DNA from: a bacterium
GTDB lineage: Bacteria > Sumerlaeota > Sumerlaeia > MVZB01
Direction: 5' to 3'
Assembly: GCA_021372575.1 (NCBI GenBank)
Contig: JAJFUE010000025.1
Coordinates: forward strand, 1-60,235
DNA length: 60,235 nt
The notes beneath the pieces are model-generated. The model was given only the letters and a program-made list of their open reading frames with translations, searched no databases and was not told the origin of the DNA. Every line of letters begins with the position of its first letter. The stretch's first letter is position 1. Position numbers and translations under genes: made by a program. Of the stretch, positions 1,792-60,235 are shown piece by piece.

Positions 1792-1834
1792 TTTCTCTGT
1801 GGCCTCTGTTTCTCTGTGTCTCTGTGGGAAAAAA
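1792..1834. repeat. Stuttered CTCTGTG repeat
   Basis: Degenerate tandem words of 7-9 bases built on TCTCTGTG lie between two convergent genes. The same word array recurs at 50783-50822 and, as an ACAAAG/CTTTGTG variant, at 34238-34313. Confidence 0.6.
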
Positions 1835-3872: not shown

Positions 3873-5333
3873 ATGCGGCTGCGATTTTTCTCGCTGATCG
3901 AGTGCATGAACCGCAAACGCCTGCCAGTCTGGAGAACCCTGCTCGTGATCGCCAACGATGCGTTGGCGGTCGGGGCCGGATTGTTGCTCGCGTATTGGCT
4001 CAGGTTCTTCTCTCCCCTCACCCATTGGGTCCACATCCGCAACGGATTCGATCCACAGCATTACCTGGCGATGTTCCCGTATGCGTGGGTGATCTGGATG
4101 GTTGCGCTGCGCATGGAGAACCTGTATCGGCGGCGCTCGCGCGTGTTCGACAAAATGGTCGTGCGGCGGATCGTGAGTGGATCGATGCTGGCGGTGCTGG
4201 TGCTGATCGCGGTCAATTATTTCGGGGGGCCGGGGCAGCCGTCGTATTCGCGCACGATGACGGTGATGATGCTGTGCCTGGTCATCGCGGCGCTGTTCGG
4301 CGGGCGCATCGTGCTCGACCAGATTTTCCGCTGGATGGTGCTGCACCGCGGCATCGGCCAGTCGCGCACGCTGATCATCGGCACGGGCCCGCTCGCGGAG
4401 TACATCTGCCGCACGTTATTAAAACACCCCGAGCGCGGCGTGCTTCCGATCGGATTGCTCAATGGCCGCCCCGCCGAAGCGTCGCCCGATTCGGTCGCCG
4501 GCCTGCCGGTGCTGGGAACGATCGATCAACTGACTGAAATCATCGCGGCATCCAAAATCGATGAAGTAATTCTGGCGCAGACGCTGGTCGATCGCGACCG
4601 CGTGCCGGGGCTACTGATCCAATGCGAGCGGGCGCTGGTCGAGTTCAGCATCGTGCCGGAGGCGACCGAGTTGCTCCTGTCCGGCATGACGGTCGAGACG
4701 ATCGACGGGCTGGCGATGCTCGGGACACGCGAGACGCCGCTGCAGGGCTGGAACGCCGCGCTCAAGCGGATGATCGATTTCATGCTGGCGCTCGTCGGGC
4801 TGATCGTGATGGCACCCTTGATCGGGCTGCTTGCGTGGCTCGTGAAGCGGCAGGACGGCGGGCCGGCGTTTTTCGTGCAGGAACGGATGGGAATCGACGG
4901 GCAGTTGTTCCGCATGATCAAGCTGCGCACGATGCGGCTGGACGCCGAAAAGGCCGGACCGAGCTTTGCCAGCGATTACGACCCGCGCGCGACGCGGCTC
5001 GGCGCAGTCATGCGCAAGCTGCACATCGACGAACTGCCGCAGTTGGTGAACGTGCTGCGCGGCGAGATGAGCCTCGTCGGCCCGCGGCCGGAAAGGCCTT
5101 ATTATATCGAGAAGTTCCTGGACGCGGTGCCGGGCTACATGGCGCGGCACCGCGTCAAGAGCGGCATCACCGGCTGGGCGCAGGTCAACGGCCTGTGCGG
5201 CCTGCACGGCTCGATCGACGAACGGTTAAAATACGATTTGTATTACATCGAGAACTGGTCGGTGTGGTTCGACTTCAAGATTATTTTGATGACGCTGTTC
5301 CGCAAGCCGGTCTCCGCGACGAAACCGCAGTAA
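3873..5333 (+). CDS. Polyprenyl-phosphate sugar-1-phosphate transferase (second copy)
   Basis: Same overall family as 1891-3285 but diverged, so the two probably use different sugars or make different glycans. N-terminal hydrophobic helices ([19 protein letters not shown] and onward) are followed by a nucleotide-binding-like region ([15 protein letters not shown]). The PF02397 catalytic domain has [54 protein letters not shown] and [11 protein letters not shown] downstream ATG at 3906 ([10 protein letters not shown]) gives a more typical N-terminus and neither start has a strong ribosome-binding site; the longer form is given. It is convergent with the SDR gene, with an inverted repeat between them. 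Confidence 0.9.
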
Positions 5334-5340
5334 TTTCTTT

Positions 5341-5408
5341 ACGCCAAGACGCCAAGATCGCCAAGAAGAGCAATCAACTCTGTCTTGGCGATCTTGGCGT
5401 CTTGGCGT
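5341..5408. repeat. Perfect inverted GCCAAG repeat, probable bidirectional terminator
   Basis: The 26-base arm 5341-5366, built from three stuttered GCCAAG words, is exactly mirrored by 5383-5408 across a 16-base spacer. It lies between two convergent stop codons, so transcripts from either side end in a long hairpin; TATTTATTTT follows on the plus strand. The same words recur at 47906-47934, 48020-48051, 50600-50627 and 50833-50861. Confidence 0.75.
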
Positions 5409-5423
5409 ATTTATTTTATTTCA

Positions 5424-6383
5424 TCATTCATCGTTGTTTTCGCGCGCCGTGTGGCCACCGTGCGATTTGAAATATTCGATCGTGCGGCGGAGGCCTTCGC
5501 GCAGCGGCGTGCGCGGTTTCCAGCCGAGGCGCTCGCGCGCCTTGGTAATGTCGGGGCGGCGGGTCTTCGGATCATCGACCGGCAGTTCGTGATGGATGAT
5601 CGGGACCTGGCTGCCGGTCAGCTCGCGGATCAGCTCGGCGAATTCCATGATCGTCATTTCGTCCTGCGAGCCGATGTTGACCGGTTCTTTCTCGTCCGAC
5701 ATGAGCAGACGCCAGATGCCATCGACGAGGTCATCGACAAAGGTGAACGAGCGCGTCTGGCTGCCGTCGCCATAGACGGACAGCGGCTCGCCACGCAGGG
5801 CCTGATCGACGAACGTCGGCACGACGCGGCCGTCGCTGAGGCGCATGCGCGGCCCATACGTGTTGAAGATGCGGACGATGCGCGTTTCCATCTTGTGGAA
5901 GCGCTGGTAGGCCATCGTCATGGCCTCGGCATAACGCTTGGCTTCGTCATAGACGCCGCGCGGACCGATGGGGTTCACATGGCCCCAATAGGATTCGGGC
6001 TGCGGGTGGACCTGCGGGTCGCCATAGACCTCGCTGGTCGATGCGAGCAGGAAGCGGGCGCCTTTTTCGCGGGCCAAGCCGAGCGTCTTGTGCGTGCCGA
6101 GCGCACCGACCTTGAGCGTCTGGATCGGCATGCGCAGATAATCGATCGGCGAGGCCGGGGATGCGAAATGCAGCACGTAATCGATGGGACCCGTGATGTA
6201 AATGAATTCCGTCACGTCCTGCTTGATGAAGCGGAATTTATCGGACCGGATGTGGTCGATATTGACCAGCGAGCCGGTGATCAGGTTGTCCATCGCGATG
6301 ACTTCGTGGCCCTCGGCCAGGAAGCGTTCCACAAGGTGCGAGCCAAGGAAGCCCGCGCCTCCAGTGATCAATGTTCGCGGCAT
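5424..6383 (-). CDS. UDP-glucuronate decarboxylase-like NAD-dependent epimerase (SDR)
   Basis: Extended short-chain dehydrogenase, closest in motifs to UDP-glucuronic acid decarboxylase (UXS), which makes UDP-xylose. TGGAGFLG (residues 7-14) binds [13 protein letters not shown] and YDEAK (Tyr145, Lys149) form the catalytic site. [29 protein letters not shown] and the [13 protein letters not shown] run are UXS hallmarks. Length (319 aa) fits bacterial UXS. The ATG at 6392 directly abuts GGAG, whereas 6383 stands 9 bases after it, so 6383 is chosen. It probably supplies a pentose donor for the surrounding surface-glycan genes. A related 4,6-dehydratase or epimerase is possible but less likely. 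Confidence 0.85.
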
Positions 6384-13111: not shown

Positions 13112-13443
13112 GGTCATGAACCTCATCCTGAATTCCCGTTGCGAAGGTGTGAACCCGCGCTTTGTTTGGTGGTGATCTATCTCCAGTTTCGGACCAATTT
13201 TTTCGAAAACACGCAATTTGAATAGAATCAACATCATGACGATTGGGTTAAGAATGATCGGCGGGCAGAGAAGTGGTGATTTCCCGCAAGAGGTGGTGAA
13301 AATTGCCAATTGGGCAGGGCGCGGGAATGGAGTCGGACCAATCGTCCGCAAGGTGGTTTGATTACGATTACGATTACGAGCACGAGCACGAACGGGGAAA
13401 CTTCTCTCTGGCACAGGCTGGCTCGGCTGTGCATGCTGGTGTC
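13112..13443. other. Divergent intergenic region with GATTAC/GAGCAC repeat
   Basis: This 332-bp region separates pspA from the membrane protein at 13444. At 13360-13394 it contains GATTACGATTACGATTACGA followed by GCACGAGCACGAAC, a stuttered repeat whose inverted relative is at 28222-28264. I found no convincing sigma-54 or sigma-70 promoter for pspA. Confidence 0.55.
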
Positions 13444-28196: not shown

Positions 28197-28221
28197 GTTA
28201 TGAACTCATCCGTGAACCAAT

Positions 28222-28323
28222 AATCGTGCTCGTGCTCGTAATCGTAATCGTAATCGTAATCGATCAGTCGTTTGCTCATCCCTCGCTCACGCTCGGGCTA
28301 CTGCATCGCCGCACTCCGCACTC
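28222..28323. repeat. Cluster of three repeat types between gspE and gspF
   Basis: In order: GTGCTCGTGCTCGTAATCGTAATCG-type stutter (28222-28264, inverted relative at 13360-13394), a REP-like element TCCCTCGCTCACGCTCGGGCTACT split as hairpin (28279-28302, relatives at 148 and 55996), and GCCGCACTCCGCACTC (28308-28323, relative at 51711-51733). They lie back to back inside the T2SS operon. Confidence 0.7.
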
Positions 28324-30999: not shown

Positions 31000-32520
31000 C
31001 TATCTATAATCAGTCCATTTATCGCTATGGATATTATTCGGCAGTATTAACATGAACGGATTTGGGTTGAAGGCGTAAATAGACGGGGAGGCGACGGCGC
31101 GGATCCGATACCAGCCGGTGTGCGTGATATCCGGAAACGTCAAGATCTCGGTCTGCTCGCCGCTCGGGTTCGATGCGTATTTCAAGTTGGTGACCTTGTG
31201 CATGCCTTCCCATAATTCCAGGTTCACGGCCGTGCCGGCGGTTGCGACGTCGGTCTTCCAATGCACCACAAGCGGGTCACGCCCGCCGACGAGGCGTTCG
31301 CCGCCTTCGGGCGACAGAACGCGCACGCCGCGCGCGGGAAGCTGGTTCGCGTAAAGGTAAATCCTGTTTCCGGCGCTGGCAACGATATCCGGGTTGCCGT
31401 CGCCGGTGACGTCGCCCACGGCCAGGTCATCAAAACTTTTCACGCCCGCCGGCATGGTCAGCGTGTGTGTCGTCAGGCTCGGCGAGGAACCGCCGGGATT
31501 TGAATACCAGTGTCCCGTGGAACTGACCACTTCCGTATTGCCGGAGCCGCTCAGGTCGCCGGTCGCGGTCTTGCCGGGCAGGCCGAACGTTATCGGCAGC
31601 CGGAACGTGGCCGGCCTCCCGCCGTTGTTCAAATAGAACCGCCCCCCGGCCACGATGTCCATGCGGCCATCGCCATTAAGATCGGCCACAGTCAACGACC
31701 CGCTGGTGCCCTGATTGATGTCATGCCGCGTGAACGAAGGACTAGCCGCGCCATTATTCTCATCCCAACGCATCGCCATGGCATCGCCGCGGGCTAAAAC
31801 AAAGTCATTATCACCGTCACCGTCAAGGTCAGTCGAGAGATACGGAAAATAGCCATCAAGTGTTAGAGTAAGGGGTTCAGCCATTGTAAATTTTATGGGC
31901 TGCCCGCCATCATTTCGATACCAATTTAACCAGCGGTCATCATAGACCACAACATCAGGACGGTCGTCATGGTTCAGGTCGGTGACAAAACCTGGAATAT
32001 AAGTATTGTCATTCCAACTTACCGCAGACTGATATGAAAAAACTGGGTTTTGGCCTCCATTGTTCTTAAGAATGGCTATAGTTGAAAAAGAACCACTCTT
32101 TATTATTTCTTGATAACGACTGTAGATGATGTCTAATTTACCGTCGCCATCCATATCCGCCGAATTGACCCACCCACATCCGGCGAAATTCCCTTGAAGG
32201 GTTTCCAAATTATGTTCCATGAAAGAAGGGGAAGGAAGACCATCATTTTCAAACCAACTCAGGGCGCCGATTTGCATTCCGTGACCATGTGCATTATTGT
32301 AAACGGCGACGATATCCTTCCGTCCGTCAGCGTTGATGTCGGCCAGATGAAAATTCACTGAAATTACGTATGGATACAAGTACACATCGACAATAACCTT
32401 CGGCGAACCAAAGCTAGCCGAAGCCGCCCAAGAAGGGCCCACGAGAATCAGCAACAAAATGCCCAGCAAAAAGATTTGACGTATGAAGCGATTATCCCGG
32501 TAATTGAAAAAGTGATTCAT
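31000..32520 (-). CDS. Secreted FG-GAP repeat protein with C-terminal Kre9/KNH-like domain
   Basis: 506 aa. Signal peptide ends near GPSWAASA; then about seven FG-GAP/VCBS blades with Asp-rich calcium loops (DINADGRKDIV, DMDGDGKLDII, DLNGDGRMDIV, DVTGDGNPDIV), which should form a beta-propeller. The last ~95 residues (PEGGERLVGGRDPLVVHWKT... ELWEGM... WYRIRAVAS) form an Ig-like Kre9/KNH-type domain. It is followed by no obvious sorting tag. It is a near copy of 32540-34057, conserved at both ends but divergent in the middle blades. Likely exported and ligand-binding at the surface; ligand unknown. Confidence 0.8.
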   Translation of the reverse strand: MNHFFNYRDNRFIRQIFLLGILLLILVGPSWAASASFGSPKVIVDVYLYPYVISVNFHLADINADGRKDIVAVYNNAHGHGMQIGALSWFENDGLPSPSFMEHNLETLQGNFAGCGWVNSADMDGDGKLDIIYSRYQEIIKSGSFSTIAILKNNGGQNPVFSYQSAVSWNDNTYIPGFVTDLNHDDRPDVVVYDDRWLNWYRNDGGQPIKFTMAEPLTLTLDGYFPYLSTDLDGDGDNDFVLARGDAMAMRWDENNGAASPSFTRHDINQGTSGSLTVADLNGDGRMDIVAGGRFYLNNGGRPATFRLPITFGLPGKTATGDLSGSGNTEVVSSTGHWYSNPGGSSPSLTTHTLTMPAGVKSFDDLAVGDVTGDGNPDIVASAGNRIYLYANQLPARGVRVLSPEGGERLVGGRDPLVVHWKTDVATAGTAVNLELWEGMHKVTNLKYASNPSGEQTEILTFPDITHTGWYRIRAVASPSIYAFNPNPFMLILPNNIHSDKWTDYR

Positions 32521-32539
32521 CGAGTGAGCCCTGTATTCA

Positions 32540-34057
32540 TTACTTATAATCGATCCATTTGCCGCTATTGATATTATTGGGAAGGATTAACATGAACGGA
32601 TTCGGGTTGAAGGCGTAAATGGCCGGGGAGGCGACGGCGCGGATCCGATACCAGCCGGTGTGCATGATATCCGGAAACGTCAAGATCTCGGTCTGCTCGC
32701 CTGTCGGGTTCGATGCGTATTTCAAGTTGGTGACCTTGTGCATGCCTTCCCATAATTCCAGGTTCACGGCCGTGCCGGCGGTTGCGACGTCGGTCTTCCA
32801 ATGCACCACCAGCGGGTCACGCCCGCCGACGAGGCGTTCGCCGCCTTCGGGCGACAGCACGCGCACGCCGCGCGCGGGGAGCTGGTTTGCGTAAAGGTAA
32901 ATCCTGTTTCCGGCGCTGGCGACGATATCCGGGTTGCCGTCGCCGGTGACGTCGCCCACGGCCAGGTCATCAAAACTTTTCACGCCCGCCGGCATGGTCA
33001 GCGTGTGTGTCGTCAGGCTCGGCGAAGATCCGCCGGGATTTGAATACCAGTGTCCCGTGGAACTGACCACTTCCGTATTGCCGGAGCCGCTCAGGTCGCC
33101 GATCGCGGTCTTGCCGGGCAGGCCGAACGTTGTCGGCAACCGGAACGTGGCCGGCCTCCCGCCGTTGTTCAAATAGAACCGCCCCCCGGCCAGGATGTCC
33201 ATGCGCCCATCGCCATTAAGATCGGCCACAGTCAACGGCCCGCTGGTGCCCTGATTAATGTCATGCCGCGTGAACGAAGGACTGGCCGCGCCATTATTCT
33301 CGTCCCAACGCATCGCCATGGCATCGCCGCGGGCTGAAAGGCAATCAATGTTGCCGTCCCCATTCAAATCGGCAAGATTTATGTAGGGGGGATAGCCGTC
33401 AAAAACAATTGGATATGAATATGTAAATTGAGGCGGCCAGACGCCATTGTTCCTGTAAAAGCTTAGGCTATGACGAGCATCGAGAGCGATATCCATATAC
33501 CCATCATGGTTTAAATCGGTGATAAAACCAGTATATTCGGGATAATCCTCTTTAAAGGCTTTGTAGCATTTAAAAGTTGGCTGAGGGCCGCCCTGATTTT
33601 TGAAAATGGATACTTCGTGAGTTTCTGGATATCCCCACAAATAATCATATGCGTAGCGCATCGCGACAATATCCAATCTGCCGTCCCGGTCCATATCCGC
33701 TGAAGCAATCCAGCCATAGATGCAACCACGAAGTTTAAGGCCACCCAATTCGTCTATATTATGCTCAACGAAGGCCGGAGAAGCATGACCATCATTTTCG
33801 AACCAACTCAGGAGGGCACGGTCACTTTGGGTTCCAATCATGTAACCCGCAACAACATCCTTCCTCCCGTCGGCATTAATGTCGGCCAGATGGAATATTA
33901 CTTGAACCGTGCGCGTGGTCAATCCGACGATAACCTTCGGCGAACCAAAGCTTGCCGAAGCCGCCCAAGAAGGGCCCACAAGAATCAGCAACAAAATGCC
34001 CAGCAAAAAGATTTGACGTATGAAGCGATTATCTGGGTAGTGGAAACGGTGATTCAT
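32540..34057 (-). CDS. Secreted FG-GAP repeat protein, mosaic paralogue
   Basis: 505 aa. The same signal peptide, first blade start and C-terminal ~290 residues as 31000-32520 are almost identical at DNA level, while residues ~45-220 are clearly diverged (for example DMDRDGRLDIVAMRYAYDY in place of DMDGDGKLDIIYSRYQE). Calcium loops are kept. GGGAG precedes ATG 34057; an earlier ATG at 34090 would add 11 residues and lose the paralogue alignment. It is 19 bp upstream of its sister and shares the sigma-70 promoter at 34162-34190. Confidence 0.8.
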   Translation of the reverse strand: MNHRFHYPDNRFIRQIFLLGILLLILVGPSWAASASFGSPKVIVGLTTRTVQVIFHLADINADGRKDVVAGYMIGTQSDRALLSWFENDGHASPAFVEHNIDELGGLKLRGCIYGWIASADMDRDGRLDIVAMRYAYDYLWGYPETHEVSIFKNQGGPQPTFKCYKAFKEDYPEYTGFITDLNHDGYMDIALDARHSLSFYRNNGVWPPQFTYSYPIVFDGYPPYINLADLNGDGNIDCLSARGDAMAMRWDENNGAASPSFTRHDINQGTSGPLTVADLNGDGRMDILAGGRFYLNNGGRPATFRLPTTFGLPGKTAIGDLSGSGNTEVVSSTGHWYSNPGGSSPSLTTHTLTMPAGVKSFDDLAVGDVTGDGNPDIVASAGNRIYLYANQLPARGVRVLSPEGGERLVGGRDPLVVHWKTDVATAGTAVNLELWEGMHKVTNLKYASNPTGEQTEILTFPDIMHTGWYRIRAVASPAIYAFNPNPFMLILPNNINSGKWIDYK

Positions 34058-34161
34058 CACATCTCCCTCGCGTGGGTGATGCTTGGCCATGGCGCTTCAA
34101 ATTAACTGAAATTCATTAAGTATTACCATATGTGTAATTATTAATTATCACAACCCATTTA

Positions 34162-34237: not shown

Positions 34238-34313
34238 TGAACCACGAAGACACAAAGCCACAAAGAATTCTTCAAAATTGCCTATCTTTGTGCCTTTGTG
34301 TCTTCGTGGTTCA
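34238..34313. repeat. Inverted ACCACGAAGACACAAAG repeat
   Basis: Arm 34238-34266 and arm 34285-34313 are 29 bases each, inverted, with one mismatch, around an 18-base AT-rich spacer. It directly follows the stop of the YfhO gene 34315-36594 and can act as its terminator hairpin. Words are variants of the CTCTGTG stutter. Confidence 0.7.
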
Positions 34314-36594: not shown

Positions 36595-36837
36595 GAGCTC
36601 AACCGTCCCAAAAACCAGACGCTATCATGCGGCAATACTCGAGTTGGTTTCCAGTCTTTATGGCGGCGGAAACCGGCAAACTGAAGTTTGAACTCCGAAC
36701 AGGAATTCCGACATCGAATGAGCGTGGCTTTACTCGATTGAGCGGCGAATGAGAACAGGAGGAAACGGAGTTAACGGAGAATCTCTCCGTTGCCTCCGTT
36801 AACTCCTGTTACCGGCGGATAGAAATCGGTGGATAGC
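36595..36837. other. Intergenic region with two repeat families
   Basis: Together with the terminator that follows, this is a 320-bp gap between two minus-strand genes. It holds a CTGAAGTTTGAACTCCGAAC element (36674-36700) and an imperfect inverted pair of AACAGGAG/GGAAACGGAG/TTAACGGAG words (36754-36780 and 36784-36811). The latter words recur at 50705-50730. Confidence 0.6.
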
Positions 36838-36878
36838 AAAAAACCACGGAGTCGCATCGCGCGGCTCCGTGGTTTTGT
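36838..36878 (-). terminator. Intrinsic terminator after the CRTAC1-like gene
   Basis: Minus-strand hairpin CCACGGAG...CTCCGTGG (36872-36865 with 36851-36844, extended by AAAA/TTTT) is followed by a T-run. It lies about 40 bases past the stop of 36915-38516. Confidence 0.75.
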
Positions 36879-44187: not shown

Positions 44188-44272
<85 letters not shown>

Positions 44273-44279
44273 CCGAACG

Positions 44280-44361
44280 AGTGCTTAGTCCTTAGTCCTT
44301 AGTGCTGAGTTCCGGCAGGTTGAACTCAGCACTAAGGACTTGGGACTAAGGACTCAGAACT
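44280..44361. repeat. Inverted TTAGTCC/GGACTAAG stutter repeat
   Basis: Words AGTCCTT(A) and AGTGCTGAG at 44280-44311 are mirrored by CTCAGCACT-AAGGACTT-GGGACTAAGGACTCAG at 44323-44361. It lies between tRNA-Leu and the next gene. A related segment is embedded in a coding region at 52501-52530. Confidence 0.65.
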
Positions 44362-46530: not shown

Positions 46531-46560
46531 CCCTATAGGTCTTATAGGTCTATAGGTCCT
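46531..46560. repeat. CTATAGGTC stutter repeat
   Basis: Three tandem TATAGGTC words (CCTATAGGTC, TTATAGGTC, TATAGGTCC) lie between convergent stops of the DUF342 and aminotransferase genes. Confidence 0.6.
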
Positions 46561-47726: not shown

Positions 47727-47853
47727 TTCGAACTCCTCAAATGATCTCATGCGACGGCGCGCTCCATCATTCTGGTGTCTCAAACCGCAGCTTGCAAACA
47801 TAAAATCCCGAAAGACAAATATGTCATGCCCGCAACGCGCAGAATTCACATTT

Positions 47854-48100
47854 CTTTGTCGCAGAGAAGCAGATCGAGGCGGAGAGGAGAAGATTTTTCG
47901 GTCTTCTTACGCCAAGACGCCAAGATCGCCAAGGTGAAGATGCAAAAAATATTTTCTTCTCTGCGCTCTCGACATATCTCTGCTTCTCTGCGACAAAAAA
48001 CGAAGAACACAGTTTCCTGAATTCTTGGCGTTCTTGGCGTCTTGGCGTAAGAATTCCTCGCTGCCTATCCGCCTCGCTCTGCACCTCTGCGATAAAAAAA
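47854..48100. repeat. Interleaved block of GCAGAG and GCCAAG stutter repeats
   Basis: Within the 470-bp gap between two minus-strand genes: A (GTCGCAGAGAAGCAGA..., 47854-47896), B (CTTACGCCAAGACGCCAAG..., 47906-47934), A inverted (CTGCGCTCTCGACATATCTC..., 47950-47999), B inverted (48020-48051), and another partial A inverted (48057-48100). Pairing A-A' and B-B' would cross each other. A similar block lies at 50600-50912. The remainder of the gap holds no gene. Confidence 0.7.
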
Positions 48101-48130: not shown

Positions 48131-48190
48131 TTCGGATTTTTTTCGAATTTCGAATTTGTTTCGAATTTCGAATTTCGCATTTCGGATTTT
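48131..48190. repeat. TTTCGAATTTCG stutter repeat
   Basis: Five AATTTCG-like words in tandem between sod and its terminator. They are partly self-complementary (TTCGAA). Confidence 0.6.
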
Positions 48191-48939: not shown

Positions 48940-48993
48940 CAAGTTTCATATTTCATCTTTCATCTTTAATCTTTCATCGCTCATCGCTAATCT
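48940..48993. repeat. TTTCATC stutter repeat
   Basis: Tandem words TTTCATA, TTTCATC, TTTAATC, TTTCATC, GCTCATC, GCTAATC just upstream of metG. Together with the promoter region of sod on the other strand, this is the only content in the 200-bp divergent gap. Confidence 0.6.
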
Positions 48994-50599: not shown

Positions 50600-50912
50600 A
50601 CCGCCAAGACGCCAACAACGCCAAGAGGCTCACACAAAATGTGAGCCTCTTTCTTTTGTCGCAGAGAAGCAGAGATCGGCCGAGAGGCAGAGAAATCTTT
50701 TCTCTGTTTTCTCCGTTTCCTCCTGTTTAAATTCAGATATTCACAGTAGGCAACAGAGTTATGCTCGAATATCACAGAAAACAATCCTCTGTGTCTCTGT
50801 CTCTCTGTTTCTCTGTGAGAAAAAAATTATAGAATTCTTGGCGTATTTGGCGCACCACCGTAAAAAATCTTCTCTGCGCTCTCCGCCGATCTCTGCGCCT
50901 CTGCGACAAAGT
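50600..50912. repeat. Block of mixed stutter repeats
   Basis: The 318-bp gap between metG and the MBL gene. In order: GCCAAG words (50600-50627), GCAGAG words (50660-50698), CTCCGTTTCCTCCTGTTT (50710-50729), unrelated ~45 bases, CTCTGTG words (50783-50822), inverted GCCAAG words (CTTGGCGTATTTGGCG, 50833-50861), inverted GCAGAG words (50864-50912). It closely mirrors the 47854-48100 block and brackets sod-metG with it. Confidence 0.7.
50624..50657 (+). terminator. Intrinsic terminator of metG
   Basis: AGAGGCTCACA (50624-50634), loop CAAAA, TGTGAGCCTCT (50640-50650), then TTCTTTT: 11 bp perfect stem and U-rich tail, 27 bases past the stop. Confidence 0.85.
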
Positions 50913-51709: not shown

Positions 51710-51710
51710 T

Positions 51711-51733
51711 CCGCACTCCGCAGTCCGCACTCC
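51711..51733. repeat. CCGCACTCCGCAGTCCGCACTCC repeat
   Basis: Three tandem CCGCACT-like words directly at the start of the MBL gene; a shorter relative is at 28308-28323. The repeat ends 2 bases before the ATG and may provide the GCGGA in place of a ribosome-binding site. Confidence 0.6.
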
Positions 51734-51823: not shown

Positions 51824-52981
51824 ATGACGACGCCTGCGCCAAAGCTCAACATCCTGCGCGTGATCACGTGGCTGCCCATCGGCGGCATCGAACGCCGGCT
51901 CGTGGCCGTGCTGCCACGCCTCGACCGCGAGCGCTTCAATGTCTCGCTCGTCTGCATTCGCGAGCGCGGCCAGCTTGCGGACGAACTCGAGGCCGCCGGC
52001 GTTCCGGTCGAGGTCATCCCGTTCAAGTCGCGCTGGGACCCATCGGCATTGCGACGCCTCGCGGCCTACATGCGCAGCAACAAGATCGACGTCGTCCACA
52101 GCCACATGTATCGCTCGAACGTCCCCGCCACCGTGGCCGCGCGCATGGCCGGCGTGAAGACCGTCTGGTGCCAGGTGCACAACGTCGGCACGTGGGAAAC
52201 ACGCCGCCAGGCGTGGATGGACCGCGCGCTGTGCCGCTGGCGCACCGGCATGATCGCCGTCAGCGAACGCGTCCGCCGCGACGTCATGGACACGCTCGGC
52301 CTGTCCGCCGGCCGCGTCCGCGTCATCTACAACGGCGTCGATATCGACCGCTTCCGCGCTGCGCGCGCGTTGCGCGACGAGATCCGAACCCGCGAAGGCG
52401 TCCAGCCAGGCGACGTCGTCTTCCTCTTCGCCGCCCGCCTCGTCGAGCAAAAACGCTGCATCGACTTCCTCATCGCCCTCGGCAAGCTCCAGTCCATGCG
52501 GCTCAGCACTCAGGACTCAGGCCTCCGGACTAACTTGTTCGCCTGGATCCTGGGCGACGGCCCATTGCGCGAGCAACTCGAACAAGCCTCGGCCTCGCTC
52601 CCCCAACCCGGCGCCGTTCGTTTCTTCGGCAAGCGCTCCGACGTCGAGCAATTCATGGCCGGCTCCGATGTGTTTGTGCTGCCCTCGACACGCGAAGGCT
52701 TCTCGAACGCGCTCATCGAAGCGCTGGCTTCCGGCCTTCCCTGCATCGCGACCGACGTCGGCGGCAACGCCGAAGCCGTCCGCGACCAGCGCGAAGGCTT
52801 CATCATCCCGCCGCTCGATGTCGAGCGCCTCACCGGCGCGATGGCATCCCTCGCCCGCGACCCCGAGCTTCGCCGAGCCCTCGCCGAAGCCGCCTCGCTC
52901 CGCGCCGAACGATTCAGCATCGAACGCATGATCACCGAAATCGAAAACATCTATGCAAGAGGACTGCGGACCGGGGGCTGA
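51824..52981 (+). CDS. GT4-family glycosyltransferase
   Basis: 385 aa GT-B enzyme. N-terminal domain: LRVITWLPIGGIERRLVAVLPRL, VVHSHMYRSNVPATVAARMAG. C-terminal domain: VIYNGVDIDRF, VVFLFAARLVEQKRCIDFL, ILGDGPLREQLE, VRFFGKRSDVEQFMAGSDVFVLPSTREGFSNALIEALASGLPCIATDVGG with the EX7E motif. About 12 residues (RLSTQDSGLRTN) between the ALGKLQ helix and AWILGDGP are encoded by a GGACTCAGG-type repeat (52501-52530), an in-frame insertion. ATG 51824 lacks a clear ribosome site. It adds a sugar to a surface glycan or glycolipid. Confidence 0.87.
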   Translation: MTTPAPKLNILRVITWLPIGGIERRLVAVLPRLDRERFNVSLVCIRERGQLADELEAAGVPVEVIPFKSRWDPSALRRLAAYMRSNKIDVVHSHMYRSNVPATVAARMAGVKTVWCQVHNVGTWETRRQAWMDRALCRWRTGMIAVSERVRRDVMDTLGLSAGRVRVIYNGVDIDRFRAARALRDEIRTREGVQPGDVVFLFAARLVEQKRCIDFLIALGKLQSMRLSTQDSGLRTNLFAWILGDGPLREQLEQASASLPQPGAVRFFGKRSDVEQFMAGSDVFVLPSTREGFSNALIEALASGLPCIATDVGGNAEAVRDQREGFIIPPLDVERLTGAMASLARDPELRRALAEAASLRAERFSIERMITEIENIYARGLRTGG

Positions 52982-55867: not shown

Positions 55868-56218
55868 TGTTTGAATTTCGACCAGGAGTTCAAAGTTTAG
55901 TTTGCACTTGAACAATCGAAGAAGGCGTCAACAAGTGCGACCCATTTTTCGGCAACGCTTGACTTGAACCGACGCATTGCGCCATTTGATCGCGAGTCCC
56001 TCGCTCACGCTCGGGCTACTGGATTTAATGCCGCTTTCGGCGAACGCGGCCTACCGGGGATGGTGATTGGCAAACTCGGTAGGCCGCTTTCGCCGAAAGC
56101 GGCATGGATGAAGAAACATCTGCATTTCGACTTGGTTTTCCAGAGTCGGCTCGTAGAGCCGACCTACCTGTGGTGCCTGTATTGTGGTCATGTTAGCCTG
56201 ATTCGGGAGAGCGGCGGG
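55868..56218. repeat. Intergenic cluster of five REP-like/dispersed elements
   Basis: It holds GGAGTTCAAAGTTTAGTTTGC (55885-55905), a REP-like GTCCCTCGCTCACGCTCGGG...TACT (55996-56020), a GCCGCTTTCGGCGAACGCGG...TACC element (56030-56055), its inverted partner (56078-56103) and a GTCGGCTC...GAGCCGACCTACC element (56145-56168). A frame open from 55964 translates all of these but is not a credible N-terminus. TTGACT near 55960 could be a -35 box. Confidence 0.7.
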
Positions 56219-59748: not shown

Positions 59749-60030
59749 GCGCAGAAACCCTAAACAAAAACTCAGTCACGAAATTCACGAAACGAGTCGG
59801 GTGTGTTTTTGTCCGCGCCCCCAAAGGGGGTGCCCGCGAGTAGCCCCCGGCGAAGCGAAGCGCCGCCGGGGGGGCGGTGCAATAACAAACGCGCCCCGGA
59901 GCGGGCGCCAGATTTAAAACAACTCATTAGGTTGAAGCATATCGATGATGAGAATGGGGGATCAACGCGAAATTCGTGTGCTAAAAAAAAAGCTCTGGCG
60001 GCCCCGTGGGGGCGCTTTCGATTTGGTACA
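59749..60030. repeat. Repeat-rich gap with GTAG-footed hairpin
   Basis: It contains CACGAAATTCACGAAACGAG words (59778-59797), a CCCCCAAAGGGGG hairpin (59819-59830), a REP-like element (59840-59874; GTAG, then CCCCCGGCGAAGCGAAGCGCC...GGGGG) and GCGCCCCGGAGCGGGCGCC (59891-59909). No gene is visible between dgt and the insertion sequence. Confidence 0.6.
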
Positions 60031-60235
60031 GACCGGGAACATAGGTAACACTTTAGACCGGCAACATGGGTAACACTTTTGGTTAAGGTATGGTAGGAGG
60101 AGCCCGCCATGCCTTGGAAAGTGACCCAACCGGTGAGTCAACGTCTGATGTTCATTGCCGCCCACGCGCAGCACGATGCGTCCATCGCCGAGCTTTGCCG
60201 CCAGTTCGGCATCAGCCGCAAGACCGGCTACAAAT
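60031..60235 (+). mobile_element. IS481-type insertion sequence, left end
   Basis: Tandem 24-base repeats GACCGGGAACATAGGTAACA-CTTT (60031-60054) and GACCGGCAACATGGGTAACA-CTTT (60056-60079) resemble the terminal repeats of IS481 elements (GTTACC...). The transposase gene starts at 60109. The element runs beyond the window, so its right end cannot be seen. Confidence 0.75.
60109..60235 (+). CDS. IS481-family transposase, N-terminal part
   Basis: The first 42 codons are visible: MPWKVTQPVSQRLMFIAAHA, then a helix-turn-helix ASIAELCRQFGISRKTGYK, the hallmark start of IS481/ISNCY-like DDE transposases. AGGAGG lies 9 bases before the ATG. The catalytic DDE domain is beyond the window edge. Confidence 0.88.
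   Translation, partial: MPWKVTQPVSQRLMFIAAHAQHDASIAELCRQFGISRKTGYK

Follow-up and report, generated by a model that had tools for sequence, protein, structure and literature searches.

The DNA analyzed here, a stretch of 60,235 nucleotides (nt) from a bacterium of the phylum Sumerlaeota (contig JAJFUE010000025.1 of assembly GCA_021372575.1; hereafter, the window), carries arrays of short words, each 6 to 9 bases long and repeated with drift, one pair of which makes up a predicted hairpin at positions 5340 to 5409. The preliminary description of these word repeats was confirmed as an observation, and its interpretation as a whole is partly supported. With somewhat better than even confidence, we regard the arrays as dispersed repeats of many families, similar to REPINs (hairpin-forming doublets of repetitive extragenic palindromic, or REP, sequences) and to short tandemly repeated repetitive (STRR) sequences, which are tolerated at gene edges and in some cases reused as one-way terminators. 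Jointly with this reading, and with the same guarded confidence, the hairpin at 5340 to 5409 is taken as one copy of the ACGCCAAG octamer family among about a dozen dispersed short-repeat families.

In the scheme that we favor, each family would be a 24- to 40-nt array of one 6- to 9-base word, and whole arrays would be copied within the genome and between lineages, with viral contigs and plasmids as candidate carriers. The copying would be transposition-like, i.e., the arrays would be acted on in trans as REPINs are. After copying, they would change by slippage and point drift, and they would gather at gene edges, where insertion may be tolerated. The octamers typically form inverted pairs able to fold as hairpins, and a minority of them, with a U-tract on the sense strand, would probably act as one-way terminators or 3'-end stabilizers.

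Array families in the genome

The genome of the window (G000; 4.63 Mb in 214 contigs, 95.6% complete) was sampled over 878 kb (19%), comprising the window and 59 further stretches, five of which were picked for holding matches, the other 54 coming from contigs taken at a fixed step. Because gene calling relied on a home-made program based on hexamers, the gene edges are approximate. The 146 kb of intergenic DNA contain 332 arrays with a period of 6 to 9 and the 732 kb of coding DNA 106 (2.3/kb and about 0.14/kb, respectively); a Markov-shuffled intergenic control contains 5 compared with the 332 in the real sequence, a strong enrichment. The placement at gene edges given in the preliminary description was right. 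The words listed in the preliminary description nearly all occur as intergenic arrays; GGAAACGG and ACAAAGCC, on the other hand, are present as composite arms that drift and not as exact tandem repeats, and the ACTCAGG heptamers at 52502 to 52531 (+ strand), which lie within an open reading frame (ORF) in the TGA-free orientation, are the one in-ORF exception.

As had been proposed, one structural idea is realized in many families, about twelve in number and separable by period. The hexamer family is the composite (GATTAC)n(GAGCAC)n, a 42-nt form of which is identical at 14 loci. The heptamer families are GATGAA, ACTCAGG/ACTAAGG, CACGAT, AATGAG, CCGCACT, and AAATCCG; the octamer families are ACGCCAAG, CACAGAG/CGCAGAG, CACGGAA, CACGAAG, CGCAAAA, and GGAAACGG; and the nonamers are grouped around CCTATAGG. 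The ACGCCAAG arrays almost always have three units, and in arrays of this type the first two are near-invariant and the third is variable. Intergenic period-7 arrays (n = 108) have a median of 4.3 copies, the ACTCAGG heptamers ranging from about 2.6 to 8.6.

In one common test, an inverted partner was found for 13 of 17 ACGCCAAG arrays, 3 of 50 hexamers, and 19 of 105 heptamers. Inverted pairs are characteristic of the 8- and 9-mers and not of the hexamers or heptamers, and the earlier statement that the arrays are often near-perfect inverted pairs holds for the former group. Where a gap contains two arms of the same family, they stand in forward-reverse order in 35 of 43 cases. The likeness of arms is 0.815 within a locus and 0.794 between loci (P = 0.15, n = 7); because sharing a locus does not make two arms more alike, near-perfect pairing mostly reflects the common family consensus.

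Dispersal and turnover

The 16-mer ACGCCAAGACGCCAAG occurs 32 times in G000 and never in its reversed form; it is nearly absent from 60 relatives, three of which have a single copy. When 40 relatives were queried with 12 families, the distribution was patchy: hexamers were found in G002, G008, G009, G010, and G026, the GATGAA heptamer in G012, CACAGAG in G005 and G021 among others, and CACGGAA in G010 and G021. A reversed control query gave 0 to 1 matches per genome outside G000, with the slots of ACTCAGG and GAGCAC left out. These two words are mirror-symmetric when read as circular words, so that the reversed query still matches them in G000.

Scanning 84,980 species genomes for 18-mers returned 24 stretches, including true arrays in metagenome-assembled genomes (MAGs) of Phycisphaera and Algisphaera and inverted pairs in "Candidatus Thiodictyon intracellulare" (L013) and a Verrucomicrobia MAG (L032); some of the other stretches look like chance matches. 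By eye, the right arm of L013 matches window positions 48024 to 48053 at 28 of 30 positions. The source genomes contain multiple copies (21 octamers in Phycisphaera, 9 octamers in Algisphaera, and 15 GATGAA heptamers in Verrucomicrobia WAS_Bin_30). A Nostoc plasmid carries CCGCCAAGACGCCAAGGACGCCAAGAA of the ACTCAGG family; when plasmids were searched with just the octamer element, no match was obtained. Among IMG/VR contigs, single arrays of CACGGAA were found in 11 and of CGCAGAG in 7, several of them just past a stop codon. The preliminary description was right that similar arrays exist in other lineages. Since several families occur in other phyla and yet are patchy among relatives, the words are dispersed and not invented locally.

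In the congeners G012 and G018, whose flanking query segments are 82 to 91% identical, the period-7 signal is kept in G018 at 7 of 11 heptamer gaps; of the remaining gaps, two are borderline and L128/L146 is clearly without the signal. The units of these heptamer arrays drift and their counts change, while their position is mostly kept. G018 appeared array-free by BLAST, and alignment revealed the diverged arrays. Two substitutions and a 9-nt unit indel are all that separates two near-identical viral contigs (L165 and L169); the indel lies inside an octamer array, which indicates that slippage also acts. The 3' ends of orthologues of the gene at 5424 to 6371 differ between relatives, with a CACGAAA hairpin in G002, a TTGCGGA inverted pair in G008, a TATAGGTCC array in G010, and no obvious array in several others.

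The preliminary description had offered slippage with template switching as the generating process. In its strict form, in which each array arises in place and independently in each gap, this explanation would account for the unit indel in L165/L169, for heptamer arrays that vary in copy number at a kept position, and for three short-loop hairpins with a mirrored third unit. We consider it improbable, however, because the same 24- to 42-nt arrays are found at numerous loci and in more than one phylum, and the sets of families differ between lineages. Slippage itself was observed; alone, or with template switching, it is insufficient to explain how 24- to 40-nt arrays of the same kind come to stand at numerous loci of one genome and in several phyla.

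Position and polarity relative to genes

Array density is 3.3/kb in convergent, 2.3/kb in codirectional, and 0.96/kb in divergent gaps. When gap lengths were matched in the unbiased subset, divergent gaps were depleted (30 arrays versus 47.9 ± 6.5 expected; P = 0.0025) and the convergent excess was weak (48 versus 37.9 ± 5.8; P = 0.05). The enrichment near convergent stops is accordingly present but small, and the main effect is the divergent depletion. All 32 heptamers within 6 nt of a stop codon have the orientation that contains TGA, and in 19 of these cases array and stop codon overlap; where heptamers of the same families lie inside ORFs, their orientation is the TGA-free one, except for one that ends its ORF. 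The association with gene ends therefore arises in part because the heptamer words provide stop codons. Insertion at gene edges would be tolerated, as judged from the depletion of coding DNA and divergent (promoter) gaps and from near-stop heptamers occurring only in the orientation in which TGA can end an ORF.

These positions also bear on a role as binding sites of global regulators, which has been proposed for the paired octamer and heptamer repeats of Geobacter metallireducens (PMC2700814). The near-invariance of the first two units next to a variable third fits such sites, and so do the inverted pairs, whose spacing varies as it does in that organism. On the other hand, the arrays lie mostly at 3' ends, divergent promoter gaps are depleted, and many families coexist in one genome with a patchy distribution among relatives, all of which makes this role very unlikely.

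Of 171 single arrays, 133 start their reading direction at the nearer gene edge and point into the gap (133:38; P = 1.5e-13), and this polarity holds in all three gap types. The ratio is 114:34 for arrays without an opposite unit ahead and, near start codons, 17:0 for heptamers, 24:4 for hexamers, and 15:7 for octamers; where the far side leaves no space for a partner (<60 nt), it is 15:6 in all, too few cases to weigh either way. Polarity is most simply accounted for by decayed inverted pairs, and stop-codon filtering and imprecise gene calls can contribute to that of the heptamers. If polarity came from none of these three sources, arms might instead have been added singly and in constant sense to both edges of a gap, e.g., when broken or stalled DNA ends are repaired, by a word-adding process common to phyla. 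Octamer pairs of different families that interleave (47852 to 48053; L091:9839-10079) can be cited beside this possibility, to which we assign a small probability.

Another conceivable source of such words would be a reverse transcriptase, similar to telomerase or DRT10, by which DNA ends are extended with tandem repeats. The word length and drift look telomere-like, the arrays read inward from both gap edges, and DRT10 makes tandem-repeat DNA (PMC12632851). However, no reverse transcriptase (PF00078) was found in G000, which is nearly complete as stated above, and a dozen words would require a dozen templates; this origin was rejected for lack of such a gene in G000 and is extremely unlikely.

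The hairpin at 5340 to 5409 and probable terminator activity

The left arm of the hairpin (5340 to 5366, + strand) reads ACGCCAAG ACGCCAAG ATCGCCAAG A, and the right arm (5383 to 5409, - strand) is its perfect reverse complement. Each arm therefore consists of three ACGCCAAG units, the third of which has drifted, and the arms are complementary at 27 of 27 positions, slightly better than the 26 of 26 first described for 5341 to 5408. The 16-nt loop (5367 to 5382) has ends, AGAG and CTCT, that prolong the stem, and its core, AGAGCAATC, is seen again in the short-loop copies L046:9202 and L087:10341. The predicted RNA fold of 5340 to 5409 has an energy of -58.1 kcal/mol, versus -17.5 ± 2.98 kcal/mol in shuffled sequences (z = -13.6). 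The hairpin nearly fills a 90-bp convergent gap between a + strand gene (3873 to 5333), whose stop codon lies 7 nt before it, and a - strand gene (5424 to 6371), which ends in the gap. The products look like a sugar transferase and a sugar-nucleotide epimerase, respectively, and a family search gave no assignment for either gene.

A T-rich tail at 5410 to 5421 is terminator-like for the + strand gene only: 7 of 8 positions are T on the + strand and 2 on the - strand, and the hairpin therefore resembles a one-way terminator for the + strand gene. Sense-strand tails with at least 5 T in 8 positions follow 12 of 46 array hairpins; the background in random intergenic stretches is 6.6%, and of the other inverted repeats 11 of 69 have such a tail. 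Both strands are U-rich at 1 of 37 array hairpins. Judging from these tails, a minority of octamer hairpins, that at 5340 to 5409 included, probably serve as one-way terminators or 3'-end stabilizers.

It is rather unlikely that arrays are kept mainly because intergenic hairpins halt RNA polymerase and, between convergent genes, do so in either direction. The very stable hairpin in its small convergent gap, the excess of U-rich sense tails over background, and the higher density in convergent than in divergent gaps are consistent with such selection, but the convergent excess is weak once lengths are matched, U-tracts almost never occur on both strands, hexamers and heptamers are mostly unpaired, the arms show no compensatory pairing, and ordinary terminator-like stems adjoin arrays at about 50630 to 50660 and at 36840 to 36876. 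The suggestion that the repeats are selected as bidirectional terminators was accordingly not upheld.

Mechanism of dispersal

Several results weigh against dispersal by REPIN-like copying. None of the 13 loci for Y1 transposases (Y1_Tnp) is flanked by the 6- to 9-mer words, and an origin of these words from REP-associated tyrosine transposases (RAYTs) was rejected for lack of flanking words. An exact-flank search for empty sites in viral contigs found none, all six contigs holding the array, and viral relatives at 38 to 47% amino acid identity proved too distant to be of use. No clean pair of filled and empty sites was found and congeners mostly share positions; recent mobility is therefore not demonstrated. 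No signal of compensatory stem evolution between arms was detected at seven loci. Furthermore, the cross-phylum matches are 24 to 42 nt long, and some of the sequence in the IMG/VR and MAG contigs may be host DNA that was misbinned.

Two of the 13 Y1 transposase genes, both RAYT-like (L116 in contig C150 and L117 in contig C22 of G000), have a distinct 10-mer repeat of the GAAGCCGGCT type on both sides; this 10-mer has further intergenic copies in G000 and looks like an ordinary REP-RAYT system. Among the 40 relatives, the number of Y1_Tnp genes shows by eye no clear match with array abundance: G012 has many heptamers and 1 Y1 gene, and G011 has 9 Y1 genes and no strong arrays.

Other features of the window

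Further octamer arrays are a CACAGAG array (CTCTGTG on the + strand) at 1794 to 1826 (- strand) in a convergent gap; a CACGAAG/CACAAAG hairpin at 34238 to 34313, paired at 28 of 29 positions as first described, with a loop of 18 nt and a U-rich tail on the - (sense) strand; and an octamer-type inverted pair of GGAAACGGAG at 36750 to 36815 (outer limits approximate), adjoined by the stem at 36840 to 36876. Two octamer pairs are interleaved at 47852 to 48053 (CGCAGAG arms at 47852 to 47886 and 47966 to 48000; ACGCCAAG arms at 47904 to 47933 and 48024 to 48053). In the gap at 50602 to 50910, arms of ACGCCAAG, CGCAGAG, GGAAACGG, and CACAGAG surround the ordinary stem at about 50630 to 50660, which has a T-rich tail. 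In both of these gaps, and in L091:9839-10079, the arms of two families cross (forward, forward, reverse, reverse) and are not nested, a pseudoknot-like order.

The hexamer composite (GATTAC)n(GAGCAC)n is found at 13360 to 13391 (+ strand) in a divergent gap and, in reverse orientation, at 28221 to 28262 (- strand). Heptamers form an AGTCCTT/ACTCAGG inverted pair at 44279 to 44355 (31/34, loop of 9 nt) and arrays of AATTTCG at 48131 to 48189, the GATGAA family (TTTCATC on the + strand) at 48944 to 48978 (- strand), and CCGCACT at 51710 to 51733. A tRNA gene, the sole match of an Rfam search, precedes the heptamer pair within 10 nt (44188 to 44355). The nonamer array of TATAGGTCC, a self-complementary word, lies at 46533 to 46558 in a 51-bp convergent gap.

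Apart from the word arrays, two neighboring - strand ORFs of 506 and 516 amino acids (31000 to 34090) resemble each other in their patterns of overlapping ORFs and are probably a tandem gene duplication. Tandem repeats of two copies are found at 385 to 552 (84 nt, 90% alike) and at the window end (60030 to 60079; 25 nt). An inverted repeat of 29 nt (97%) with a loop of 20 nt, which is not a word array, lies at 56028 to 56105, just ahead of the gene at 56108.

Comparison with known systems

Filamentous cyanobacteria carry heptamer repeats known as STRR sequences. TAACTGA heptamers are common to Beggiatoaceae, cyanobacteria, and Bacteroidetes, and their mechanism is unknown (PMC4679880). Similar to both, the present heptamers are intergenic arrays that span distant phyla, the ACTCAGG family occurring even on the Nostoc plasmid; unlike the TAACTGA repeats, which lie just upstream of start codons, they belong to many families of 6 to 9 nt found at both gene edges. 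Long simple sequence repeats of 5 to 11 nt (Mrazek 2007, as cited in PMC4679880) resemble the arrays in that heptamers are commonest, the phylogenetic distribution is scattered, and slippage acts, and they differ in that the arrays are dispersed, of fixed length, built from shared words, and inverted in pairs.

The paired tandem octamers and heptamers of G. metallireducens, termed predicted regulator sites (PMC2700814, Additional files 7 to 9), share with the present arrays three to five tandem 7- to 9-mers, inverted pairs at variable distance, and several word classes per genome. Their words are different, however, and they are linked to ISGme8 and ISGme9 insertions, with a function that is only proposed. 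Similar to REP sequences, bacterial interspersed mosaic elements (BIMEs), and REPINs (PMC2817692, PMC3116915), the 8- and 9-mer families are short, high-copy, and extragenic and form inverted pairs with variable loops. RAYTs are reported to have inverted REPs on their flanks in every case (PMC2817692), whereas no RAYT is flanked by the words described here, which moreover have a tandem structure and fall into several families per genome. The stem at 5340 to 5409 and the U-tract after it on the + strand resemble those of a Rho-independent terminator; in contrast to such terminators, a U-tract is present at a minority of copies, and the unpaired families are unable to form a stem.

A literature search for the exact words returned nothing relevant. 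Earlier short-word repeats (STRR sequences, TAACTGA repeats, and the Geobacter sites) were described singly and with no known origin. The genome studied here combines about a dozen families, several of which also occur in viral contigs and distant phyla. Their polarity follows a rule that can be measured, and the congeneric genomes permit their turnover to be followed, by which the spread of such repeats becomes testable.
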